In this document: positions 157 through 62,907 of the stretch, piece after piece
How the letters are laid out: every line of letters begins with the position of its first letter
How positions within the stretch are numbered: the first letter of the stretch is position 1
Source of the DNA: Pelagicoccus enzymogenes
Lineage (GTDB): Bacteria; Verrucomicrobiota; Verrucomicrobiia; Opitutales; Opitutaceae
Assembly (NCBI RefSeq): GCF_014803405.1
Contig: NZ_JACYFG010000035.1
Span: forward strand, 62,001-126,000
Direction: 5' to 3'
Length of the DNA stretch: 64,000 nt
Translations under genes and position numbers: made by a program
Notes under the pieces: generated by a model
The model's database searches: none
The model's input: the letters and a program-made list of their open reading frames with translations, nothing else
What the model was told of the DNA's origin: nothing

Positions 157-254
157 AGGCAGCCCCTCTGCCCTATTGACGGGACAACAATCCCACCCCA
201 TTGAAAGGGGTGCGTCGTCTTGCGAAATTCAACTTCAGACGGTGCTTAGCTACC

Positions 255-5810: not shown

Positions 5811-7757
5811 CTAGTCTTTCTTTTTGTCGTCGTCGACGACTTCGAAGTCAGCATCCACTACGTCAGCTTGCTTCGGGTCCTTGTTGCCGCTGGATTCGCC
5901 GCCACCCTGAGGAGGTGGCGGAGCGCCCGCTCCTGCGGGATCGCCACCCGCAGCCGCTGCTGCCTGCTGGTAGAGCTCAGCGCCTACCTTGGTCAGCTTT
6001 TCAAGGGCAGCCTTGATCTCGTCGTTGTTGTCGGACTCGAGAGCCTTCTTGCCTTCAGCGATAGCCCCTTCGATCGGAGCCTTCTTGTCAGCAGGGAGCT
6101 TGTCTCCCGCTTCGCCCAACATCTTTTCCATCTGGTAGATAGAGGAGTCGAGCTGATTGCGGTTTTCGACCGTCTCCTTGCGCTTCTTGTCCTCTTCGGC
6201 GTGAAGCTCAGCGTCCTTGGTCATCTTTTCGACTTCGTCTTCGGAAAGGCCACCCGAACCAGTGATCGTGATCTTTTGGTCCTTACCTGTGCCCTTGTCC
6301 TTGGCGGAGACATTCAAGATACCGTTGGCGTCGATGTCGAAAGTAACTTCGATTTGAGGCGTTCCACGCGGAGCTGGCGGAATGCCGTCGAGGTGGAAGG
6401 TGCCAAGCACCTTGTTGTCCGTCGCCATCTGACGCTCGCCCTGCAACACCTTGATCTCAACAGACGGCTGGTTGTCAGAGTAAGTGGAGAAGGTTTGAGA
6501 CTTCTTGGCGGGAATAGTCGTATTTCGTGGTATCATCGCTGTGGATACACCACCCGCTGTTTCAATACCTAGCGTCAGCGGAGTAACGTCGAGAAGAAGA
6601 ACGTCACGCACGTCACCCTTCAGGACAGCGCCTTGGATCGCAGCACCGATAGCAACCACTTCGTCAGGATTAACGCCCTGATTCGGCTTCTTGCCAGCGA
6701 GTTCCTCAGCAATCTGCACCACCTTCGGCATACGTGTCATACCACCTACGAGGACGAGTTCGTCCACTTCGGAGGTGGACATGTCAGCGTCGCGCAAGCA
6801 GTTCTGGAATGGCACCTTCAAGCGGCTGAAGAGATCGTCGGTGATCTGCTCGAGCTTCGAGCGTGTCATGGAGATGTTCAAGTGCTTGGGACCTGACGCG
6901 TCAGCCGTGATGAACGGAAGGTTGATGTCGTAGGTCGTGGAGGAGGAAAGCGCGATCTTAGCCTTTTCCGCTTCTTCCTTCAAACGCTGGAGAGCCATGG
7001 GATCGCCCTTGAGGTCGATGCCGTTCTCCGCCTTGAACTCCTTCACGAGCCAGTTGATGATGTGCTCGTCCCAATTATCACCACCGAGCATGGTGTCGCC
7101 GTTGGTAGACTTTACTTCGAAAACGCCGTCGCCGATTTCGAGAATCGAAACGTCGAATGTACCGCCACCCAAGTCGAACACGGAGATTTTCTCTTCCGAC
7201 TTTTTGTCGAGACCGTAGGCCAGAGACGCAGCGGTTGGCTCGTTGATGATGCGAAGGACATTCAATCCGGCAATCTTGCCGGCGTCCTTGGTGGCCTGAC
7301 GTTGGCTGTCATTGAAGTACGCAGGTACAGTGATAACCGCTTCCGTGATCGTTTCGCCAAGGTAGGCTTCCGCATCCGACTTGAGCTTCGCCAAGACGAA
7401 AGAGGAAATTTGCTGAGGAGCGAACTTCTCGACCTTGTCGCCTACGTTACACTCGATGTAAGCATCGCCGTTTTCTGCTCCAACCACCTTGTAAGGAAGA
7501 TTTGCGGCTTCCTCACTCAGCTCGGAGAAGCTGCGGCCAATCATTCGCTTGGCCGAAAAGATGGTGTTCTTTGGATTCGTAACTGCCTGGCGCTTAGCCG
7601 CCTGGCCCACGAGCCGTTCACCTGTCTTGCTAAACGCAACGATTGACGGAGTCGTACGTGCGCCCTCCGCGTTCGGTATAACGACTGGCTCATCGCCGTC
7701 CATTACTGCCATGCAGGAGTTTGTTGTTCCTAGATCTATGCCTAATACACGTCCCAT
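5811..7757 (-). CDS. dnaK: Molecular chaperone DnaK (Hsp70)
   Basis: A 648-residue Hsp70 that binds exposed hydrophobic segments of client proteins under ATP control. The start chosen at 7757 gives [16 protein letters not shown], the standard N-terminus with the phosphate-1 motif; an upstream in-frame extension lacks homology. Other hallmarks are the [17 protein letters not shown] segment, [16 protein letters not shown] (phosphate 2), [12 protein letters not shown] (adenosine site) and the substrate-binding domain beginning [15 protein letters not shown]. The C-terminus is Gly/Pro/Ala-rich and ends in an acidic and lysine tail ([11 protein letters not shown]). No grpE, dnaJ or hrcA lies in the window, so these co-factors are encoded elsewhere. 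The gene is divergent from the Lon-N gene. Confidence 0.98.
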
Positions 7758-15823: not shown

Positions 15824-16924
15824 CTAGGGGAAGCGGATGATCACGCCTCCTCCCCTGGAAGGCGGCGGTGGCGGAGGCAATGGATAGCGGTCCGACTCGT
15901 TGCGATCGATGTGATCGAGGTTGTCTCGGTTCATGCCGATGAAGGCTCCACCGTGCTCGTAGGTCAGGTCATGCATCAACTTGGCGAATTTGACTCCTGA
16001 GTTCTGCAGAATCATGGCCCCGTTATGAATGACGTTCGGAAATCCGATCGCGTTGATCCGAGCGATCCGATTTCCGTCCTTGTCCTTATTGAGCTTGCGG
16101 ATCTCCTGCAAAACCGGTTCCGGCTTGCCCGTAAACTCGTCGCCAAAAACATACACTCCGAAGTGAAACTCCTCCACGTTCGGATCGTAGAGGGTTCGTA
16201 TCGCCCGCCGTATTCCAGGCACCGGGTTACTCTCGCTTTCGTATGGGTAAAGCAGCACCTGACGCACCATCGCTTCACGCATTTCAGGCGAATCTTGCAG
16301 CCACTTTCCGCCCATGCGCGACCCCATGATGAAGTGGCCGCTCGCATCTAAAAGCTGGATGCCTTTCACCTCCGGATAAGACAAGACCACCTCCTCGAAC
16401 TTACGCACCACGTGAGGATTGATTCGGTTCGTGCTGCTTTCGCGCATGCTACCGGAGGTATCGATGACGAATGCGATGTAGTTGCTTTCGACCGGCACGC
16501 CTATCGGCATGGGCTTGATTACCTTTTGCTCGATTTCCGGCTCCGTCTGGAAGGCAGCGAGCTCCTCCTTGATCGACTCCAGATCCGTGATGAACAGCTC
16601 CTTGGCCTTTTCCTTGTCGCTGATCTGCTGCCGCAGCTTAGCGATAAGCGCTTCCAAGGTATTCCGCTCCGCGTCCTTCTTCTTGCGCTTGGTCTTCTGC
16701 AGGTCCAAGTGCACATCCAGCTCGTCCTTCCGAATCTGGTAGTCGGCTAGCATCAGTTGCTTCTGCATTACCGTGTTCTCCAGGACCCGCTGCAGCTTCA
16801 CGATCTCCGTCGCTTGCACGCCCATGGATACGATAAAGAGCAAGATGATCGCCCCGAAACCGCAACAAATGCAGTCTAGGAACGACAAGCTGAACGCCTC
16901 TGCCTTGCGCGTGCGACGACTCAT
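15824..16924 (-). CDS. Membrane-anchored vWA protein with ExbD/MotB-like N-terminus (canonical MIDAS)
   Basis: The protein has 366 residues. After a short basic cytoplasmic start, AFSLSFLDCICCGFGA begins a membrane helix that continues to about residue 35. The Phe-Leu-Asp at its start lines up with the F-I-D of ExbD (TPFIDVML...), whose Asp carries protons, which is an inference from alignment by eye. A long coiled coil follows (about residues 40-130), then a von Willebrand A domain with the canonical metal site motif FVIDTSGSM (near residue 160). A short proline-rich tail ends the protein. The ATG at 16924 overlaps the TGA of the preceding gene (ATGA), implying translational coupling. It is the last gene of the four-gene operon. 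Predicted topology puts the vWA domain in the periplasm. Confidence 0.8.
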   Translation of the reverse strand: MSRRTRKAEAFSLSFLDCICCGFGAIILLFIVSMGVQATEIVKLQRVLENTVMQKQLMLADYQIRKDELDVHLDLQKTKRKKKDAERNTLEALIAKLRQQISDKEKAKELFITDLESIKEELAAFQTEPEIEQKVIKPMPIGVPVESNYIAFVIDTSGSMRESSTNRINPHVVRKFEEVVLSYPEVKGIQLLDASGHFIMGSRMGGKWLQDSPEMREAMVRQVLLYPYESESNPVPGIRRAIRTLYDPNVEEFHFGVYVFGDEFTGKPEPVLQEIRKLNKDKDGNRIARINAIGFPNVIHNGAMILQNSGVKFAKLMHDLTYEHGGAFIGMNRDNLDHIDRNESDRYPLPPPPPPSRGGGVIIRFP

Positions 16925-17985
16925 ATGTCTGGCCACCCCTCCGAAGGACTGATCATCGAGCCACCGCTCGAATTGGCGAGACGCCAAAAGTGCACTGCCG
17001 AGCCGGGATCCGGCATCAGCGGGTACATGATCGTGTTTACCGGCAAATCGATATCCAAGGCATTCTGCGCCATGCGCAGCATCGCCACGCGATCGTCGTA
17101 CATCACCTGGCTGCTACCCGCATAAGAGTCAGCCAAAGTCGGAAGCCCATCGCAAATCAGCACCAAGCGATCCGGCTCGATCGGGAGTTCGTTGACGATG
17201 GCAAACGCCTTCTCGAGGTTGGCGCCCCCTTCCGGAGTGATGTCGTCGATGGCATTGAGCACCTCCACGGTCAGGTTGTTGTCCATAGGGTCGAACCAAT
17301 CCCGGCCGAAGCCAACTTCCAGCGGTATGAGCTCCTTGTTGTAGAAGATGATCTTGTAGTTAGACCCTTCCTTCAAATTGGCAATGAGCCAACGCAAAGC
17401 CAGCTTCACCCGTTTCCACTTGGGAGCGTTACGGCGTTCCTTTTCGCTTTTCTCAGCGAATTCCGTGGCCTCCACAATCGTGTCGGCCGTCATACCGGCC
17501 GAAGCCTCCACGAGGAACAGGACTTGGTCGCCTAGAATGTCGAAACCGGTCAAGTACTGGCGACGGTCAGGATTGGGAATCGGGATCGGCGCCTTCTCCT
17601 CCTGCTTCGGCATGTTCTCCTTGTCGTCGATTAGCTTTCCTAGCTCTTCCTCGATTGCCGCAAGCTGAGCGAGCAGCAACTTGAGCATCTCATCCAGCTC
17701 GGTGTGGCGCTTCTTGGTCTCGTCGAGACGCGCCCCGCTGTCCTCGGCTCGCTTGGTTTCGAAGGCCAAGGTCAGCTTCTTGTCCTCTATCTCCTTGTCG
17801 TTCTTGGCGATTTCATCCTCCATCTCGCCGATAATTTCCATGATCGCCGCCTGAAGGTCGTCCATTTCCTCTGCTTTGCGACTCGCAGTCAGCACGAACA
17901 ACAAGAGCACCGCCCCGAAACCGCAGCAAATGCAGTCTAGGAAGGAAAGGCTGAAAACCTCGGTCTCTTTTCTCTTACGCCTCAT
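16921..17985 (-). CDS. Membrane-anchored vWA-like protein with ExbD/MotB-like N-terminus (degenerate MIDAS)
   Basis: The protein has 354 residues and the same architecture as its downstream neighbour: a basic start, VFSLSFLDCICCGFGA and a membrane helix, a coiled coil to about residue 125, then a vWA-like fold starting at FDILGDQVLFLVEASAG. The metal-site pattern DxSxS is replaced by E-A-S-A-G, so metal binding is doubtful. Later vWA landmarks remain, including TPEGGANLEKAF (the expected threonine/glycine loop) and RLVLICDGLPT (the position of the conserved Asp). The two N-terminal segments are nearly identical while the vWA parts are divergent, so they are paralogues that probably form a heterodimer. 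Confidence 0.78.
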   Translation of the reverse strand: MRRKRKETEVFSLSFLDCICCGFGAVLLLFVLTASRKAEEMDDLQAAIMEIIGEMEDEIAKNDKEIEDKKLTLAFETKRAEDSGARLDETKKRHTELDEMLKLLLAQLAAIEEELGKLIDDKENMPKQEEKAPIPIPNPDRRQYLTGFDILGDQVLFLVEASAGMTADTIVEATEFAEKSEKERRNAPKWKRVKLALRWLIANLKEGSNYKIIFYNKELIPLEVGFGRDWFDPMDNNLTVEVLNAIDDITPEGGANLEKAFAIVNELPIEPDRLVLICDGLPTLADSYAGSSQVMYDDRVAMLRMAQNALDIDLPVNTIMYPLMPDPGSAVHFWRLANSSGGSMISPSEGWPDI

Positions 17986-18008
17986 AGGTTAGCAGCATTC
18001 GTCACGAC

Positions 18009-19490
18009 TTACTGGATACAGTGAATAAGCAGCAACTGCTTGCGTCGCCCGGGCAGGGCCACTTCGAACGAGTCGCCAGCCCGCAGGCTGGAGGTGGAGA
18101 CCGATTCGATAATCGTACTCTTCGACTCCGACAAGATCCAGCGGTCCTCCTCGAACTTCAAGCGGCAGAGCTCCGCTGGGGCGGGCGTGAGGTCCCTTTC
18201 CACTACCAGGTGAAAGTCCTCCGATTCTCCAAAACCGATGATGAAATCCCCCGTACCCAGCTCATAGGCTAAGCCGTCGCAAACGATATGCGTAGGATTC
18301 AAGGACTTGCCCTGCTTGACCAAACGGATAGCGCCCACTGGGACGCGCGGGTGGAACTCGCCGGTATCACCCTCTTGGGGAACATCCAAATTGATTCCAG
18401 TTTCGACACGCACGTCCTCGATGCTCTCCGGCAGCTCCCAAGTCTTGCCGAGATTGGCCGCCCCGAAGGCGGCGCTTTCGGCCGGCAGTTGCTTCACGAC
18501 TCCAACGCCTTGAGCCACGATCGCTTCTTTAAGTCCTTGGATCGCAGCGGCACGCTCGGAGAGAATGACCTGCACCGGCCTGTCGCCATCGCCATAGTCG
18601 TTGATGGCTCGCAACAGAATTTGCGTGAGAACCTTAACGTAAGGAGCGAGGTCCAGAGCCGCCAAATCGCGAGTCACCGTCATCTGGCGAGATTTCTCAC
18701 GCGTCGAAACCTCCAAGCTCGCCTCTCCAGACTTGCCGAGATGGAAAAGCATCTCACGCGTCTGAGCGTGGAAGGCCTGCTCGATCTTGCGGTCCTCCGT
18801 GACGTCGAAGGATGTCTGCTTCAGAAAGCGACTGGCCAACGCGTTGGCGAAGCGCTCCTGCATCGAGTGGAAACCGTTTTGCGGTTGTCGCGAGAAGTAG
18901 ACGCGCTCCAAACCGAAACGCTTGTTAAAAACAGTGATATGGGTCGCGTGCAGCAGCAAGTCCAAGTGGAAGAGGCGCTCTCCTTCAGCGACTCCCCACA
19001 GCCCTTCGCTGTAAAGCGAGGCCGCCGCCATGTCTACGACACCCACCACTGGAATCTTCAGGTCGTTAAGAATGCCCAGAAGTATACCGATGCGTTGCTC
19101 GGAAATCTCGTTCTGCTCGAGATAGTGTCCCGGTACCGCGATGACTACTCGCTCGACGTTCTCGACCTCCCTCCTTAGGCGCGCCACCAGTTCCGACAGG
19201 AATTTGTAGGCGATCTGCGAATACGCGATGCGCGATTGTCGGCCTTCGAAATTCGTCGTTTGCAGGGAGAGTTCGTCGATGAACGACGAATTCACGCGAC
19301 GGGGAAAAACCTGCCCCAGCTCTTGGGCTTCGGTACCGAACACCAATGCGTCGGAATTGGACCCCGAAAACGCGTAAGCGGGCAAACGCTCCGTTTCGCT
19401 GTCTAGCTGAATAGTGCGCGAGGAGCCGTCATCATTAATCACGACGCCGTGCACTCCGACGTCACTCAGCTCAATACCTAGGGTTGCCAT
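18009..19490 (-). CDS. Hsp70/actin-fold ATPase-like protein
   Basis: The protein has 493 residues. It starts MATLGIELSDVGVHGVV, in the place of the phosphate-1 loop of the Hsp70/actin ATPase superfamily. VVIAVPGHY and a VVGVVDMAAASLYSEG block correspond to the Hsp70 segments VPAYF and 'EPTAAALAYG'. A C-terminal part of about 120 residues looks beta-rich and is not an Hsp70 substrate-binding domain. The start at 19490 was chosen because the longer reading to 19820 overlaps the preceding gene and has low-complexity, shadow-like sequence. It lies between the ExbB/MotA-like gene (35-bp gap) and the vWA genes (23-bp gap). I infer a cytoplasmic ATPase that regulates or assembles the membrane complex. 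Confidence 0.72.
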   Translation of the reverse strand: MATLGIELSDVGVHGVVINDDGSSRTIQLDSETERLPAYAFSGSNSDALVFGTEAQELGQVFPRRVNSSFIDELSLQTTNFEGRQSRIAYSQIAYKFLSELVARLRREVENVERVVIAVPGHYLEQNEISEQRIGILLGILNDLKIPVVGVVDMAAASLYSEGLWGVAEGERLFHLDLLLHATHITVFNKRFGLERVYFSRQPQNGFHSMQERFANALASRFLKQTSFDVTEDRKIEQAFHAQTREMLFHLGKSGEASLEVSTREKSRQMTVTRDLAALDLAPYVKVLTQILLRAINDYGDGDRPVQVILSERAAAIQGLKEAIVAQGVGVVKQLPAESAAFGAANLGKTWELPESIEDVRVETGINLDVPQEGDTGEFHPRVPVGAIRLVKQGKSLNPTHIVCDGLAYELGTGDFIIGFGESEDFHLVVERDLTPAPAELCRLKFEEDRWILSESKSTIIESVSTSSLRAGDSFEVALPGRRKQLLLIHCIQ

Positions 19491-19525
19491 ACGTTGGGAA
19501 TAAATTGCGGGTTGCTGGGGCTCGA

Positions 19526-20374
19526 CTAACGGAAGCTGATTTGCGTTTCCTCGTGTTCCGGCGTCTTCATCAGCGCCACCACTCGCTTCGTCGCGAAATC
19601 CTTCAGGTCGATTAGCAGCTTTTCTTGCTTCGACTGAAGCATGTGCAGGAAGAACATCAAAGCGATGCTGAGCAACAGAGCGATCAAGGTTGAGTTGAAG
19701 GCGAGGCCCAAGGCCGCCGTGACGCCTGAGATGTCGCCTCGAATCGCTTCGTCGGCCAAGGCCAGAGCCTCGCCGATACCGCGCACGGTCCCGATAAATC
19801 CTACGGAAGGAATCGCCCAAGCCAGGTAGCGAAGCAGCCCCAAGTTCGAGTCGAGTTCGTCGTAAGCCATCTCGGAGCGCTCGTGAACCGCAAGCGAGGC
19901 GTCTTGAATCGAGCGCGTGGAGTCAAAGCGGTGCAGGGCGGCGAGGATGATCTCCGGCAAGATCTTGTCCCGCAGTCGCGGCGTTCGCCTCACGTCTTCC
20001 TTGAGCTCCTTGTAGTGGGCCAAGGCGTCCTCCGGTATGATGCGCTCCCCCTTGGAAATTCCCAAAAAAGGATGGCTAACAATCGCCCGTTCCCTGGAGA
20101 CCCCGTACGCCTTGTAGGCCAGGATGATCATGGCCCAGGACATCAACATGAGGCAGACCATCTGCTCCTTGTCCTTCAGGATAACTACGATCGAGCGGTT
20201 CGCCACCCGAGGCTTGTCCGGATTTTGGTTCGCCTCTACCAGACTGGCGATCTGGATGTCCTCCGCCACCGGCCAAACGTAGTACCGATAAGCTGAAAAG
20301 ACGACTAGGACTGAAAAAACGAGGCCCAGAGCTAAAACGACGAACTCACGGGACAGAAAGCTGTTCCTCTTCAT
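19526..20374 (-). CDS. MotA/TolQ/ExbB-family proton channel protein
   Basis: The protein has 282 residues and about four membrane segments: residues 10-28, 71-90, about 183-205 and about 222-246. The third carries the family signature region WAIPSVGFIGTVRGIGEAL, and the fourth contains GLAFNSTLIALLLSIALMFF. These are the two pore-lining helices that surround the ExbD/MotB helix in this family. It is first in the operon followed by the Hsp70-like and two vWA genes, whose N-termini look like the matching ExbD/MotB helix. A cytoplasmic segment (about 95-180) links the second and third helices. The ATG at 20374 is well placed after a 230-bp divergent promoter region. The canonical ExbB of the window is a separate gene (43192-43875). 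Confidence 0.85.
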   Translation of the reverse strand: MKRNSFLSREFVVLALGLVFSVLVVFSAYRYYVWPVAEDIQIASLVEANQNPDKPRVANRSIVVILKDKEQMVCLMLMSWAMIILAYKAYGVSRERAIVSHPFLGISKGERIIPEDALAHYKELKEDVRRTPRLRDKILPEIILAALHRFDSTRSIQDASLAVHERSEMAYDELDSNLGLLRYLAWAIPSVGFIGTVRGIGEALALADEAIRGDISGVTAALGLAFNSTLIALLLSIALMFFLHMLQSKQEKLLIDLKDFATKRVVALMKTPEHEETQISFR

Positions 20375-20602: not shown

Positions 20603-21217
20603 ATGAACCGGAAGAACGCCCTTATCTCCACCCCCATCGCCCTTCTTGCTGCAGCGGCCCTCGTTTTCCAGACGGGTTGCGCCGGACCGGCGGCGTCAAA
20701 AACCGTCAAAGGCGGAACCGTTGGCGCCGGAGTGGGAGCCGTGGGCGGACTCATAGCCGGGGAAGACGCTGGCGGCATCGCCGCTGCCGGAGCCGCGGGC
20801 GCAGTGGTCGGTTCCGTCATCGGAGCCGTAGCCCAAAACCGCGAAAACAAACGTCAGGACACGCTCGCCCAGCAACGCGCCTACAACCAAGCCATCGCCA
20901 TGCAGAAGCGGGCCCAGGAAAAAGAGAAGTCTCAGCTCCAAGAGGAGCTGGAGATCGCCGAAGGCTTCCGCATTACCGAAGAAGAGCTCGACGAAATGAC
21001 AAGCCGGGCCGAATCCGCCGAAGAACGACTTGCGATCCTGCAGAAGAAACGGGACGCAGCCATCGAGCGTAAGCGCGAGCTCGACGAACTCGAGGAGCGT
21101 GAACGCGAAGCCCTCGCCGAAGCGGCTCGACTCGAAAAGGAACTCGCAGAACTCGAAGGTGGCACCGCTACCGCCTACAAGAAGACGACCGAGGAGCCGC
21201 AAGCGCCCCAACTTTAG
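20603..21217 (+). CDS. Glycine-zipper lipoprotein with coiled-coil tail
   Basis: The protein has 204 residues. A lipoprotein signal peptide ends with VFQTGC, so the mature protein starts at a lipidated Cys near residue 26. A glycine-zipper region follows (KGGTVGAGVGAVGGLIAGED and then GAAGAVVGSVIGAVA), the pattern of YMGG/17-kDa-antigen membrane-inserting segments. From about residue 80 the protein is a charged coiled coil rich in Glu, Arg and Lys. It is probably anchored in the outer membrane with the coiled coil in the periplasm. It is divergent from the stator-like operon (230 bp between starts) and followed at 44 bp by another lipoprotein gene. A functional link with the operon is suggested only by position. 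Confidence 0.8.
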   Translation: MNRKNALISTPIALLAAAALVFQTGCAGPAASKTVKGGTVGAGVGAVGGLIAGEDAGGIAAAGAAGAVVGSVIGAVAQNRENKRQDTLAQQRAYNQAIAMQKRAQEKEKSQLQEELEIAEGFRITEEELDEMTSRAESAEERLAILQKKRDAAIERKRELDELEEREREALAEAARLEKELAELEGGTATAYKKTTEEPQAPQL

Positions 21218-21261
21218 CGACAACGCCGTCGTCTATCGCCTAACTCCCTAACAGCCACGCC

Positions 21262-21999
21262 ATGACCAAACAAATACGCAACATTGCGGTCGGATTGTTG
21301 ATGGCCTTCCTTTTGCAGGCCTGCAACACGACCTACGAGATGCAGGTAGACGCGATCAAGAATCCGCAGCCCATCGACCCGGACGCCGATTCCTACGTGC
21401 TCATCCCTCGCGACCCCGCCCAGGACACCACCGACCTGCGCTACCAAGAAACCGTGAAGTGGATCAAGACCGCTCTCTCTGCTAAAGGCATGTACGAGGC
21501 GCTGGACCCGCTGGAAGCGGACATGGTGATCGAAGTGGACTACGGGATGGAACCGCCTCGCCAAGAGATTCGCGTGGTTGAAGTTCCCGAATACCGAACC
21601 GTTCGCGGTCCCGGCCATTACGCCCTTCAGACCGTTTACGATCCCGTGACCAAGAAAACAAGGACTGTACGCGTCTACATTCCCGGCCGCACTTCGACAG
21701 AACTGGTCGGCTACTCGCAGCAAACTCAGACGATCATCATCAACGAGAAGTACATGGTGCTGACCGCCAAGCAGAACAAGCTCGCCGAATCTGGCGATAC
21801 CGCCGCGGAGGAACTTTGGAGCGTAACCGTTCGCAACGAGGACTCCAGCACAGATCTGCGCGAATACCTTCCCATCATGGCTTCTGCCGCAACCGACTAC
21901 ATCGGAGAAGACACGGAAAAGTCTACCACCGTTCGCTTGAAGAGCGACGACGAGGTCGTGGCCTTCGTCAAACAAGGTCTCGCGAAGGAAGCCCTCTAA
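21262..21999 (+). CDS. Outer-membrane-type lipoprotein of unknown function
   Basis: The protein has 245 residues. A lipoprotein signal peptide ends LLMAFLLQAC, placing the lipidated Cys near residue 20. The mature part has alternating short strands and the pattern SYVLIPRDP...RYQETVKWIKTAL...YEALDPLEADMVIEVDYGM (described by segments), which resembles DUF4136-type periplasmic lipoproteins; this resemblance is weak. It forms a probable two-gene unit with the glycine-zipper lipoprotein. Its last 32 bases overlap the end of the convergent DedA/ATP-grasp gene. Confidence 0.75.
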   Translation: MTKQIRNIAVGLLMAFLLQACNTTYEMQVDAIKNPQPIDPDADSYVLIPRDPAQDTTDLRYQETVKWIKTALSAKGMYEALDPLEADMVIEVDYGMEPPRQEIRVVEVPEYRTVRGPGHYALQTVYDPVTKKTRTVRVYIPGRTSTELVGYSQQTQTIIINEKYMVLTAKQNKLAESGDTAAEELWSVTVRNEDSSTDLREYLPIMASAATDYIGEDTEKSTTVRLKSDDEVVAFVKQGLAKEAL

Positions 22000-41891: not shown

Positions 41892-42725
41892 CTACCACTG
41901 CTGCACGAACTCGATCTGCAAGCCCATCAAAGCCTGGCCCTTGGGCGGCGGAACGTAGGAAGCGAGACGTCCGTAGCCGGCCAGCACCTTGTTGTCGAAT
42001 TCCCGGTCTCCGCTGCTGCGCACGATACGCACGTTGCGCACCGAACCGTTGGCCAAAATATCGCACACCACCAAGGCCGAGAGCTTCGCCCCGCGCGAAG
42101 GATGGCTCGCGACCGCTCGCTTGAGCGACGCTTTGAAACCAGCAATGTAGCTGCCCAAGGCGTCTTGGTCTGCTTGGCTGTAGCTAGCAATCTCCGCGGC
42201 GGGCAGGCTGCCGATCTGGATCCCTTCGAATTGCGGAACGTTGATCTTGGGACGACGGTTTGTGGTAGGAGCCGGGTTCTTGCGCACGTTCTTGATTTTG
42301 TCCGCATCCGGATTCTGGTTCAAAAAGTCCTCGAGACTCATCTGCTGCTGCTTGGGCGGAGTCACTTCCACCACTGGCTGCTCGCGCCTGACTACCGGCT
42401 CGGGCTTTGGTTCGGGCGGGACCTCCACCTCGATGGTGCGAACCGGACGCTCGGGCACCTGGATGTCGTCGAGCGTGGGCATGCTGTCTTCCACCGGGTC
42501 GTACTTGATGTCCTCGAGGGTCGGCTGCGACTGCGATTGTTGCTGCTGGGCAGCTCCTCCCGACGGTGGCGGCACCAGCTCGAATTGAAAAGGTTCCTTC
42601 TCCTGCTCGGCAAAGAACAGGACCCAGATCGCAGTCACCACCAACAGGGCCAAATGCACGCTCGCCGAGAAGACCAGCGGTCCCCTTTGCTCGTAAAACA
42701 TGTTGGCGAGGCGAACGTCGTTCAT
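41892..42725 (-). CDS. TonB-family energy transducer
   Basis: The protein has 277 residues. A short cytoplasmic start leads to one membrane helix (residues about 15-38, LVFSASVHLALLVVTAIWVLFF). A Pro/Glu/Gln-rich periplasmic linker follows to about residue 150 with runs of EVPPEPKPEP. The C-terminal TonB-like domain has LSALVVCDILANGSVRNVRIVRSSGDREFDNKV, described by position (about residues 220-253). It transmits the energy of ExbB-ExbD to outer-membrane transporters or TolA-like functions. The linker ends close to the domain without a YP-box visible. It is the last gene of an exbB-exbD-tonB operon. Confidence 0.85.
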   Translation of the reverse strand: MNDVRLANMFYEQRGPLVFSASVHLALLVVTAIWVLFFAEQEKEPFQFELVPPPSGGAAQQQQSQSQPTLEDIKYDPVEDSMPTLDDIQVPERPVRTIEVEVPPEPKPEPVVRREQPVVEVTPPKQQQMSLEDFLNQNPDADKIKNVRKNPAPTTNRRPKINVPQFEGIQIGSLPAAEIASYSQADQDALGSYIAGFKASLKRAVASHPSRGAKLSALVVCDILANGSVRNVRIVRSSGDREFDNKVLAGYGRLASYVPPPKGQALMGLQIEFVQQW

Positions 42726-42737
42726 CGCTTTGCTACC

Positions 42738-43154
42738 CTATTCCTTCTCCTTCGTGACGAAGTGAATCTTGCCGAGCTCGTACTCTTTGAGCAAGTCCAT
42801 CAAGTTCATGATGCGCTGGTACGGCGTCTCCGCGTCCCCGCGAATGCTGATAACCGGGGCTTTGCTCATGGTGGCAAATCCCGCCAGCTCCCGCTCCAGC
42901 TCAGGCTCGCCCATCAGGTTTCCGTCCACCCGGTATCCATCTTTCAATACCGTGATGTCCACCGACTTCGGTTGCGCCTTCTCGCTGCTCTGCCCCGAAA
43001 CCGGCAGGTCCACTTCCATGACTTGCTCCTTCTCGATGAGCGGCGTGCTGATCATGAAGATGATCAACAGGGCGAAGCCCAAGTCGATCAAAGCCGTCAC
43101 GTTCAGCTCGGAGTTGGGCTCCAGCGAGCGTTTTCTATGAAAGGAGCGTGCCAT
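42738..43154 (-). CDS. exbD: ExbD/TolR biopolymer transport protein
   Basis: The protein has 138 residues. After a basic start, NVTALIDLGFALLIIFMIS carries the ExbD/TolR membrane helix with the proton-carrying Asp. The periplasmic part resembles ExbD (PVSGQSSEKAQPKSVDITVLKDG and GDAETPYQRIMNLMDLL near the end, described by segment). With ExbB it forms the proton channel energising TonB. It lies 12 bp from the TonB gene stop side and 37 bp from exbB, all co-oriented. It serves as an in-window reference for the stator-like operon at 15824-20374. Confidence 0.93.
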   Translation of the reverse strand: MARSFHRKRSLEPNSELNVTALIDLGFALLIIFMISTPLIEKEQVMEVDLPVSGQSSEKAQPKSVDITVLKDGYRVDGNLMGEPELERELAGFATMSKAPVISIRGDAETPYQRIMNLMDLLKEYELGKIHFVTKEKE

Positions 43155-43191: not shown

Positions 43192-43875
43192 TTAACGGCT
43201 CTCCAGCTCGATCACGTCGGCCAAGGCGCTGGCGAAGTTCTCCAGCTCCGTAACCAAAATCTTGGTACGCGACAAAAGATAGTTGTATCCAAATACCGAC
43301 GGGATCGCCACGCACAAACCGGCAACCGTGGTGAGCAAGGCTCCCGAAACGCCCGGAGCGAGGTTTTGCAGGGTCGCGTTCGACTGCAGCCCCATGGAGC
43401 CAAAGGCGTCCATCACGCCCCAAACCGTACCGAGCAGGCCGAAAAACGGGGCGCCGGAAACGATGGTTGCGAGGAAAACCATGCTCGACTCGTAGCTTAG
43501 CGTCTTGTTCGCCAAGGCCCGCTGCAAGGCGTTCTCCACATGCTCCACCCGAGCCGAGCGCAGCTGCTCGTCGGACTCGCCGTTCTTCGCTTGGATGCGG
43601 TGATAGGCATCCACCGCGTCGAGATAGAGAGCGGCGTAAGGCACTTGGCGCGGAGCCTTGAAGCTGGCGGGCGGGTTGAGGATGGAGGTCTGCCGGTGCA
43701 GGTTATGCTCGAATCCAAGGTTGAGCAGACGGAACTTTTTCAGCTCCCAATACTTCCCGATCATCACGGCCCAAGCGCAGACGCTGAAGAAGGCCAAGGC
43801 TATGATGATGAATTTACCTGCCAGGTTACTCTGGCTGAAATAAGTGAAGAGGCTCGCGGATTGGGCTAGAAGCAC
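43192..43875 (-). CDS. ExbB/TolQ-type proton channel protein
   Basis: The protein is about 227 residues from a GTG at 43875 (MLLAQSASLFTYFSQSN). A longer frame starts with TTG at 43965 and adds 30 residues without family support, so I chose the GTG; the start is uncertain. There are three membrane segments: about residues 20-40, about 130-155 (MVFLATIVSGAPFFGLLGTVWGVMDAF) and about 172-195 (SGALLTTVAGLCVAIPSVFGYNYL). The APFFGLLGTVWGVM block is the ExbB/TolQ signature. It begins the operon with exbD and a TonB-family gene. It is divergent from the PfkB-type kinase gene. Confidence 0.88.
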   Translation of the reverse strand: MLLAQSASLFTYFSQSNLAGKFIIIALAFFSVCAWAVMIGKYWELKKFRLLNLGFEHNLHRQTSILNPPASFKAPRQVPYAALYLDAVDAYHRIQAKNGESDEQLRSARVEHVENALQRALANKTLSYESSMVFLATIVSGAPFFGLLGTVWGVMDAFGSMGLQSNATLQNLAPGVSGALLTTVAGLCVAIPSVFGYNYLLSRTKILVTELENFASALADVIELESR

Positions 43876-44092
43876 GGCGGTGATGAATTTGTTGTAGACG
43901 AAAAGGGACGAGCCGGAGGCATTCCGACACCCCTTTGAACGCAAGCGGAGCAATACGTTCAACAAATTTTCAACCGCTCCGTAAAATAGCTGCCATCCCT
44001 CAGGCTTTTACATCCAGCCTACACAAACAAATTCTATTGCGCTACCCGCCGCCCGACGCTTACTTCAGCGCTTTCTCTACCCCCTCTAATTT

Positions 44093-61783: not shown

Positions 61784-62907
61784 TGAAACACGCTCTCGCC
61801 CCGCTTCCGTCCCCAGCCCGGCTCCTTTGCGGAATCGGCTGCGTCGCCGCCATCGTCTTCGCAACGCCGAGCCGCGCATTCGACAGCGTCGAAACCTCGC
61901 TCGAATCGCTCGACAGCGAATTGTTCGCCGTCGAGCTGCTTACCCTCAGGGCCGAGCACGCCCTGGGCGACTGGGAACTGCAAGGCACCTTCTCGCTCAG
62001 CGAATACGACATCGACTTCCAGCCGGTATCCTTCGACCTGCTGGGCCAAGCCGCTCAGCTCAGGGAACAGGCTCGCTCCGCCAATCTAATCGCCAGCAAG
62101 GCAGTCGTCGACAAGCTCACTCTCGACTTCGGAATCGCTTACCGCGACGGCTTCTCCAACTATCGCTCCGTCTGGCTCGACACCTACTTCGACCAACACT
62201 TCGAGCCCCTGGAAGGCGTTCCGGGACATGAGCTGTACCAAGACGTTCAGCCTTCCGCTGCGAGCGTGACCACAGGCCTGAAGTGGGAATACCTGCCTGC
62301 CAACGCTGTCGCCAGCGTAAGCGTTTCGCGAATACAAGACAACGTTTCGCCAGGCTACGAGATCGACTTCGACGGCATCCGCCGCGGCGAACTGGTGCTC
62401 GCCACCACCTCCCTCAGTTTGGTGACAGAAAACGTTCTCACGCCACGCCTGCGATCTCGGATCGCTCTCACCGCCACCGAAACCTCCGCCCGCAGCCCCC
62501 GATACGCCGCTGAAATCGCGCTCAACGCCGCCCTAAGGGACCGTTGGATCTGGCGCAACAAGCTCGGAGGATCCACCGAAAACCCGCAATTCGACGCCCA
62601 CTTCATCGAAAGCACGATCGAGTTCCACGCCAGCGACAGCTTCGCGATCTACCTCCAAGGGCGAAGCTACCAAGACAGCGGCGAGATCGAAAACGCGCTG
62701 CTGTTCACCACCGCAGCTCCCGAACTCGACAACGACTCCGTGGGAATCGGATTTCGCTACCTTGCCGAAAAATGGTCAGCCAAGGTATCGCTCCTGCACT
62801 CGCGTTCCCAATTCGTGGATACAAACGTCAACGTCGACTTTTTCAGAAATCTCTATGTCGACGCAGATTGGCTCACCCTGCAAGTCGCCCTCGGCAAACG
62901 ATTCTAG
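61783..62907 (+). CDS. Probable outer-membrane beta-barrel protein (DUF3570-like?)
   Basis: The protein has 374 residues from the ATG at 61783, sharing one base with the preceding stop. A signal peptide covers about residues 1-32 (ending PSRAF). The remainder alternates short amphipathic strands, with repeated aromatic-turn patterns such as FSLSEYDIDF, LKWEYLPANAVASVSVS and WSAKVSLLHSRS. It ends LTLQVALGKRF, with the terminal Phe typical of BAM-inserted barrels. I place it tentatively near the DUF3570-type barrels because of its partners; sequence similarity was not checked. It is the middle gene of a three-gene operon. Confidence 0.65.
   Translation: MKHALAPLPSPARLLCGIGCVAAIVFATPSRAFDSVETSLESLDSELFAVELLTLRAEHALGDWELQGTFSLSEYDIDFQPVSFDLLGQAAQLREQARSANLIASKAVVDKLTLDFGIAYRDGFSNYRSVWLDTYFDQHFEPLEGVPGHELYQDVQPSAASVTTGLKWEYLPANAVASVSVSRIQDNVSPGYEIDFDGIRRGELVLATTSLSLVTENVLTPRLRSRIALTATETSARSPRYAAEIALNAALRDRWIWRNKLGGSTENPQFDAHFIESTIEFHASDSFAIYLQGRSYQDSGEIENALLFTTAAPELDNDSVGIGFRYLAEKWSAKVSLLHSRSQFVDTNVNVDFFRNLYVDADWLTLQVALGKRF

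Follow-up and report, generated by a model that had tools for sequence, protein, structure and literature searches.

ExbB and TolQ, the channel proteins of the ExbB-ExbD-TonB and TolQ-TolR-TolA systems, possess three membrane segments, and an axle of the MotB type carries its own large periplasmic output domain, as would the axle made of von Willebrand factor A (vWA) proteins that is proposed below. Here we analyzed a stretch of 64,000 nucleotides from Pelagicoccus enzymogenes (positions 62,001 to 126,000 of contig NZ_JACYFG010000035.1, assembly GCF_014803405.1; subsequently designated the window), which contains at positions 15824-20374 an operon coding for a channel protein of the ExbB/TolQ/MotA type, an Hsp70-like protein and two vWA proteins, named vWA1 and vWA2. 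A related arrangement was predicted by Williams-Jones et al. (2025; PMC12204202, Fig. 4c-d), who describe in the part of their paper devoted to it a TPH-vWA motor, in which a TolQ-like gene occurs without tolR or exbD. According to this account, the vWA genes mostly form heterologous pairs, their products have a pore helix with a conserved Asp, and the systems are found in Proteobacteria and Verrucomicrobia; AlphaFold3 models set the Asp beside a threonine ring, and the same source reports pore-lining threonines for this motor family. By its composition, the core of the present operon is a member of this predicted class, as judged from its genes and set beside the Idiomarina family by description only. 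On balance, the product of the operon is probably a 5:2 motor of the MotA/ExbB/TolQ type that is driven by ions, with vWA1 and vWA2 taking the place of the ExbD or TolR dimer as axle.

The initial annotation of the window knew of no characterised system of this composition. The core and the idea of paired vWA proteins had been predicted in 2025 (PMC12204202), albeit solely as a prediction. The present operon shares with the motor of Williams-Jones et al. the TolQ-like gene, the paired vWA genes and the lack of an adjoining exbD or tolR. It differs in that Hsp70, chaperone and ATPase are absent from the main text of PMC12204202, whose section 8 is likewise without an FHA domain, lipoprotein neighbours, a coiled-coil shaft or an asymmetry of the metal ion-dependent adhesion site (MIDAS) for the TPH-vWA family. 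The accessible text of PMC12505986 nowhere mentions VWA or Hsp70, and in the open-access PubMed Central literature no other description of these combined parts was recognised from titles and abstracts. The present analysis adds a degenerate Hsp70/FHA-like subunit, matched shafts, asymmetric heads, linked putative lipoprotein genes and a second cassette. With ExbB-ExbD-TonB and TolQ-TolR-TolA the operon has in common the channel family, the channel threonines and a partner protein whose N-terminal membrane helix contains an Asp; however, the putative axle combines an extended coiled coil with a vWA head and is devoid of an ExbD domain, and the operon contains no separate TonB or TolA. MotA-MotB resembles it in the four membrane segments of the channel protein, whereas the present axle would carry a vWA head in place of the OmpA-like wall-binding domain and would be a heterologous pair.

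All four genes are encoded on the minus strand: the channel gene (19526..20374, 282 aa) is followed by the Hsp70-like gene (18009..19490, 493 aa), vWA1 (16921..17985, 354 aa) and vWA2 (15824..16924, 366 aa). Translation of all four reproduced the gaps of 35, 23 and -4 bp between co-oriented genes that had been annotated, the vWA2 start being the ATG within a 4-bp ATGA overlap with the vWA1 stop, and likewise the near-identity of the two vWA N-termini, both of which contain FSLSFLDCICCGFGA. The order is conserved in relatives, as the proposal made from the window alone implied. Among 47 stretches examined (46 retrieved, 27 + 19, plus the window), 45 carry vWA1 and two carry vWA2 only (L062, L069). 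By hand tally, the order ExbB-Hsp-vWA1-vWA2 is intact at 33/45 vWA1 loci; at three further loci (L048, L053, L075) a contig end interrupts an arrangement compatible with it, and at three (L055, L068, L070) the operon is split.

The channel protein matches Pfam MotA_ExbB with E 5.8e-13 (49.1 bits, cut-off 22.9), in agreement with its previous assignment as an ExbB/MotA-like channel. It scores far below the cut-offs of NCBIfam tolQ (28 vs 221 bits) and exbB2 (21 vs 135) and is therefore not TolQ or ExbB proper. Hydropathy analysis revealed hydrophobic segments at residues 11-29, 74-92, 179-197 and 228-246, a borderline fifth window (215-233) overlapping the last, so that four membrane segments are predicted, unlike in ExbB and TolQ. 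T196 and T229 are invariant in 22/22 aligned channels; in a profile alignment they pair with the TolQ threonines of GTV and A-T, the residue match being that of the present analysis.

The counterpart of these threonines would be an Asp in the vWA proteins. In both, residues 14-32 form a predicted membrane segment (minus strand, 17890..17946 in vWA1 and 16829..16885 in vWA2, from alignment and hydropathy) containing D17, encoded at 17935-17937 and 16874-16876, respectively. This segment is the best 19-residue hydrophobic window in both families, and vWA2 has a second, weaker window overlapping it at 26-44. D17 occupies place 4 of the best window and is thus located within the membrane segment rather than outside it; the Asp of the genome's own 12 ExbDs occupies place 3. 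It is invariant in 27/27 vWA1, 22/22 vWA2 and 24/24 hand-picked N-termini (alignment A7); unvarying in the latter are F15, D17, C21, G22, F23, G24, L28 and F30. Alignments A1-A4 take no member from L063-L081, A3 (vWA2) omits copies that are cut or have an unclear start (L047, L052, L054, L058, L062), and A4 (ExbB) omits L047 and L049, with long open reading frame (ORF) starts, as well as stretches lacking a complete ExbB. A pore helix is suggested by the position and invariance of D17 and by the gene content. Of note, C21 within the CGFGA motif of this helix (window positions 17923-17925 in vWA1 and 16862-16864 in vWA2) is also invariant, in 27/27 and 22/22 sequences, and none of the genome's 12 ExbDs has a Cys at this distance from the Asp.

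The same residues bear on the possibility that the complex is no motor at all. In that case a static ExbB-like pentamer would anchor the two vWA proteins, which would sense the wall or bind to it and signal inwards via the Hsp70-like/FHA-like protein, and the Asp would be structural. vWA domains bind ligands, and signalling or scaffolding would be a fitting role for Hsp70-like and FHA-like domains; however, the Asp and both channel threonines are jointly invariant, as ion coupling would conserve them, and we consider such an anchor rather unlikely.

The pore might instead be occupied by an ExbD encoded elsewhere. ExbD (PF02472) finds no match in the window's vWA proteins, and all 12 PF02472 matches of the genome lie outside the operon. 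When the 47 stretches, some of them short, were searched with a profile built from these 12 ExbDs, the operon and its immediate surroundings likewise proved free of ExbD; the two matches obtained are the TonB system of the window, 22 kb off, and a separate ExbB-ExbD pair ~3.5 kb off at L047. The former consists of TonB (41892-42725), ExbD (~42747-43118) and ExbB (43192-43965) and is, as annotated initially, a system of its own. With the pore filled in this way, the vWA proteins would grip the exterior of the channel like TonB or TolA and act as force transducers. The 12 ExbD matches could in principle be shared with the operon, and Williams-Jones et al. describe, in the passage on their first vWA family (PMC12204202), proteins of a side-binding type, which bind via the conserved His of an SHLS motif and are encoded near a tolR-like gene pair. 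However, 0/24 N-termini have a His in the 14-32 segment and 24/24 have the Asp, and the absence of ExbD beside the operon speaks against this arrangement as well, which makes side-binding quite improbable.

With respect to the remainder of the two vWA proteins, homology between their families spans the greater part of the sequence (hhalign 100 %, E 1.2e-40). The annotated vWA domains are below the Pfam cut-off in the window proteins themselves, of which vWA2 reaches 14 bits (cut-off 27) and vWA1 has no vWA match, but the assignment holds at the family level (E <= 0.1): VWA_3 matches 15/27 vWA1 members (best 5.5e-10) and VWA_2 matches 20/22 vWA2 members (best 4.6e-5). Profile searches of PDB sequences returned mostly coiled-coil matches for both and only marginal vWA matches (inter-alpha-trypsin inhibitor, 0.028 and 0.069); in Foldseek, vWA proteins head the list for the vWA1 model (best E 1.4e-7). 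This AlphaFold2 model, computed from 27 sequences (pLDDT 82, pTM 0.58), comprises one helix at residues 23-122, a disordered linker (pLDDT <50 at residues 125-144) and the vWA domain. The helix (17620..17919, minus strand), which takes in part of the membrane segment and shows heptad periodicity, is the proposed shaft. For vWA2 (15824..16924, minus strand), alignment and family-level Pfam matches indicate a corresponding layout of N-terminal membrane helix, coiled-coil region and a vWA domain with DTSGS. Since BatB appears among the Foldseek matches of the vWA1 model and vWA proteins are often paired with ATPases, a module of the MoxR/vWA or Bat type for the insertion of metals or cofactors was also weighed and is highly improbable, because the ATPase-shaped protein is degenerate, no MoxR-type gene was noticed on reading the flanking ORFs (no domain search for one was made) and an ExbB channel is not known from such modules.

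Averaged over each family, the hydropathy of the coiled-coil regions peaks at a period of 3.5 among nine periods tried (0.78 for vWA1, 0.61 for vWA2); the next-highest values are 0.42 at 5 and 0.40 at 6, respectively, and no other period between 3.3 and 4 exceeds 0.34. In 18/22 compared pairs, D17 and the MIDAS serine are 144-145 residues apart in vWA1 and 139-141 residues apart in vWA2, and this length is kept despite an identity to the window proteins that drops to 37-38 % among these pairs. Heptads and constant length fit a coiled coil that is two-stranded and of fixed length. The heads appear to be unequal: all 22 vWA2 members contain DTSGS and hence a complete DxSxS, the assignment of the remaining MIDAS residues being uncertain, whereas the first MIDAS position of vWA1 is E in 16/27, R in 8/27 and D in 3/27 (E160 in the window protein). 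As read from these alignments, the DxSxS motif is kept by one head and mostly lost by the other.

The Hsp70-like ATPase of the initial annotation is supported as to its fold and doubtful as to its activity. Pfam HSP70 matches neither the window protein nor its family members, and the protein is not among the genome's four PF00012 matches, DnaK being encoded at window positions ~5961-7748. Nonetheless, a 23-member family profile detects DnaK among PDB sequences with 7.3e-8, and an AlphaFold2 model (pLDDT 87, pTM 0.81) retrieves Hsp70 structures in Foldseek, with E values from 6.7e-21 to ~8e-18 in the best 50 rows; these include Ssz1 ribosome-associated complexes as well as chains of the nucleotide-binding domain (NBD) only, at ~1e-18 and with a TM-score to the target of at most 0.79. 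The likeness to the NBD of DnaK and to Ssz1-type Hsp70 is thus one of fold. At phosphate-2, DLGGGT of DnaK aligns with DLLLHAT, Gly being present in 2/23 members at position 179, 1/23 at 181 and 5/23 at 182, and the consensus of the 23 members lacks the GG of the adenosine loop. Since the phosphate-2 glycines are lost, the label ATPase is doubtful. In contrast to Hsp70, the place of the substrate-binding domain is probably taken by an FHA-like C-terminal domain (18012..18338, minus strand, limits approximate), for which a weak profile match to an FHA structure (PDB E 0.047), a beta-rich model and Pfam FHA matches in 2/23 members (best 2.8e-5, not the window protein) speak. Loss of the phosphate-2 glycines together with this probable domain makes a scaffold or sensor likelier than an ATPase. 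Residues 134-152 of the family form a flat hydrophobic window, which was considered as a membrane segment and rejected, as it is taken to be part of the folded NBD. The family occurs in 23/57 genomes, all of which have vWA1; two genomes (G035, G047) have vWA1 without it. The genome of P. enzymogenes (G000) contains two more Hsp70-type matches apart from DnaK, in adjacent ORFs of 882 and 630 aa (G000:C60:261694-264401, L115).

The four-gene unit as first delimited left out an adjoining pair of putative lipoprotein genes at 20603-21999, which are located on the plus strand and divergent from ExbB. The first (20603..21217) codes for a glycine-zipper protein (Pfam Gly-zipper_YMGG 0.0015) and the second (21262..21999) for a DUF4136-like protein (4.5e-5), both matches being below cut-off. 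A Cys following a signal-like segment is invariant in 15/15 and 17/17 aligned rows, respectively, in hand-picked alignments of 15 of 20 glycine-zipper and 17 of 21 DUF4136-like matches. We infer that the pair would reside at the outer membrane. Beside the operon, the glycine-zipper gene is present in 29/47 and the DUF4136-like gene in 25/47 stretches, and this adjacency extends beyond the organism's own family (both genes at L056, the glycine-zipper gene only at L057 and L072-L074). Genome-wide co-occurrence was assessed for the DUF4136-like protein only, using hand counts and thresholds of E <= 1e-3 for vWA1 and E <= 1e-5 for the DUF4136-like profile. Of 57 genomes, 23 have both, two vWA1 only (G043, G047), four the DUF4136-like protein only (G011, G038, G039, G049) and 28 neither, corresponding, in statistics that ignore kinship, to Fisher values of 8e-10 by genome, 1e-7 by genus (16/2/4/28) and 1e-7 by genus within the family of the window organism (13/0/1/16). 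L040, L043, L076 and L079 each have a tandem of two DUF4136-like genes next to the operon. A connection between the glycine-zipper protein and TasL was dropped, the paper concerned having 'glycine zipper' solely in its reference list.

Two genomes, G004 (L061, contig C85) and G015 (L060, contig C300), possess a divergent extra copy of all four genes. This second cassette is without the lipoprotein pair and has other neighbours in common: a coiled-coil-rich protein of 731-746 aa, a protein of 338-344 aa encoded directly upstream of ExbB, a thioredoxin-like protein of 229-250 aa with a membrane segment encoded downstream (the coiled-coil-rich and thioredoxin-like proteins named by reading), and one more upstream ORF. 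Therefore, the four-gene core occurs as a unit with differing partners.

Taken together, we propose that one vWA1 and one vWA2 form the central axle, their N-terminal helices being inserted into the pore of the channel, where the invariant Asp would carry the ion. Each helix would extend as a coiled-coil shaft of ~90-100 residues capped by a vWA head, and a flow of protons (or sodium) would turn the shaft. The heads would engage a periplasmic or outer-membrane partner, for which the products of the adjoining putative lipoprotein genes are the best candidates. The Hsp70-shaped, FHA-like protein would be a scaffold in the cytoplasm or switch the channel on and off, and is probably not a working ATPase. 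The vWA pair as moving subunits with an Hsp70-like regulator or assembly factor had been suggested before; D17 and the gene order agree with the vWA part of this reading, whereas the ATPase role is doubtful and homology with ExbD was not detected by profile comparison. A more specific version is tentative, namely a modular motor with an obligate vWA1/vWA2 shaft of fixed length, a gate derived from Hsp70 as a pseudo-ATPase with FHA-like domain, and exchangeable periplasmic or outer-membrane clients, such as the lipoprotein pair or the coiled-coil, thioredoxin-like and further proteins of the second cassette.

Several observations weigh against the vWA axle and its proposed partners. The Phe-Leu-Asp of the vWA proteins had been equated with the F-I-D of ExbD, which holds by eye and by depth in the helix; hhalign, however, detects no homology between the vWA N-termini and ExbD (probability 2.0 and 1.3 %), and its weak alignments have a shifted register with Asp not on Asp. 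The vWA1 model is least certain at the N-terminus (pLDDT <50 at residues 1-11 and 15-17). Coupled shaft lengths were not used as evidence for pairing (Spearman 0.34, p 0.12), a Pearson value of 0.86 being driven by two related loci of one clade. The Hsp-like gene is absent between ExbB and vWA1 at 6/45 loci (L045, where the stretch also ends before vWA2, L057 and L071-L074) and is therefore not essential; it is weakly matched at L064-L068 (15-36 bits), including four loci with intact order (L064-L067) where it is a shorter ORF recognised with 15-30 bits. Moreover, D177 is retained in 22/23 and G5 in 20/23 family members, so that the protein may still bind nucleotides. No lipoprotein pair was found next to the operon at L058-L061, L063-L068 or L070, some genomes have DUF4136-like paralogues elsewhere, and the match of G056 is on another contig.

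Concerning its distribution, vWA1 was found in 25/57 genomes including that of P. enzymogenes, and strong matches (E < 1e-70) in 23/387 genomes of the phylum, a sample that overlaps partly with the 57; 15 of the 38 matching genomes of this sample have weak partial matches (E 1.6e-7 to 7.2e-6), which were counted as other vWA proteins. The closest named relatives of vWA1 are from Pelagicoccus sp. SDUM812005 (96 % identity) and SDUM812002 (94 %). A contig scan with vWA1 alone yielded five loci, those named being Pelagicoccus, DG1235 and a metagenome-assembled genome of Opitutales. A plasmid search with vWA2 gave no match, and on viral contigs a vWA2 profile gave 62 pattern stretches with no relative among them. 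A Zorya-type defence system (PADLOC) was rejected, the ExbB being only weakly ZorA-like (best 3e-6), the other three proteins at chance level and no Zorya partner being present among the four.

The genome of P. enzymogenes has 16 MotA_ExbB and 12 ExbD matches, among them neighbouring pairs of MotA_ExbB matches beside a single ExbD (e.g. C39:302484-303910) and two tandem ExbD matches with no MotA_ExbB listed nearby on the contig (G000:C6:471056-471898; L088, L091). A separate MotAB-like pair is located among flagellar-looking genes (names by reading). TolB_N was not detected in this genome, in a search whose control matched 3/14 known genomes including E. coli; a single domain in a single genome does not establish the absence of Tol-Pal, which may have diverged or be incomplete here.

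If the proposed motor is real, its 1:1 hetero-axle would provide the 5:2 motors with a shaft that is asymmetric and with an output domain new to the family, together with a cytoplasmic regulator built from the Hsp70 fold and a tangible candidate for the client at the outer membrane. The question of what is pushed by vWA motors that lack TolR could then be tested directly in cultured species of Pelagicoccus, of which a type strain, KCTC 13126, has the operon.

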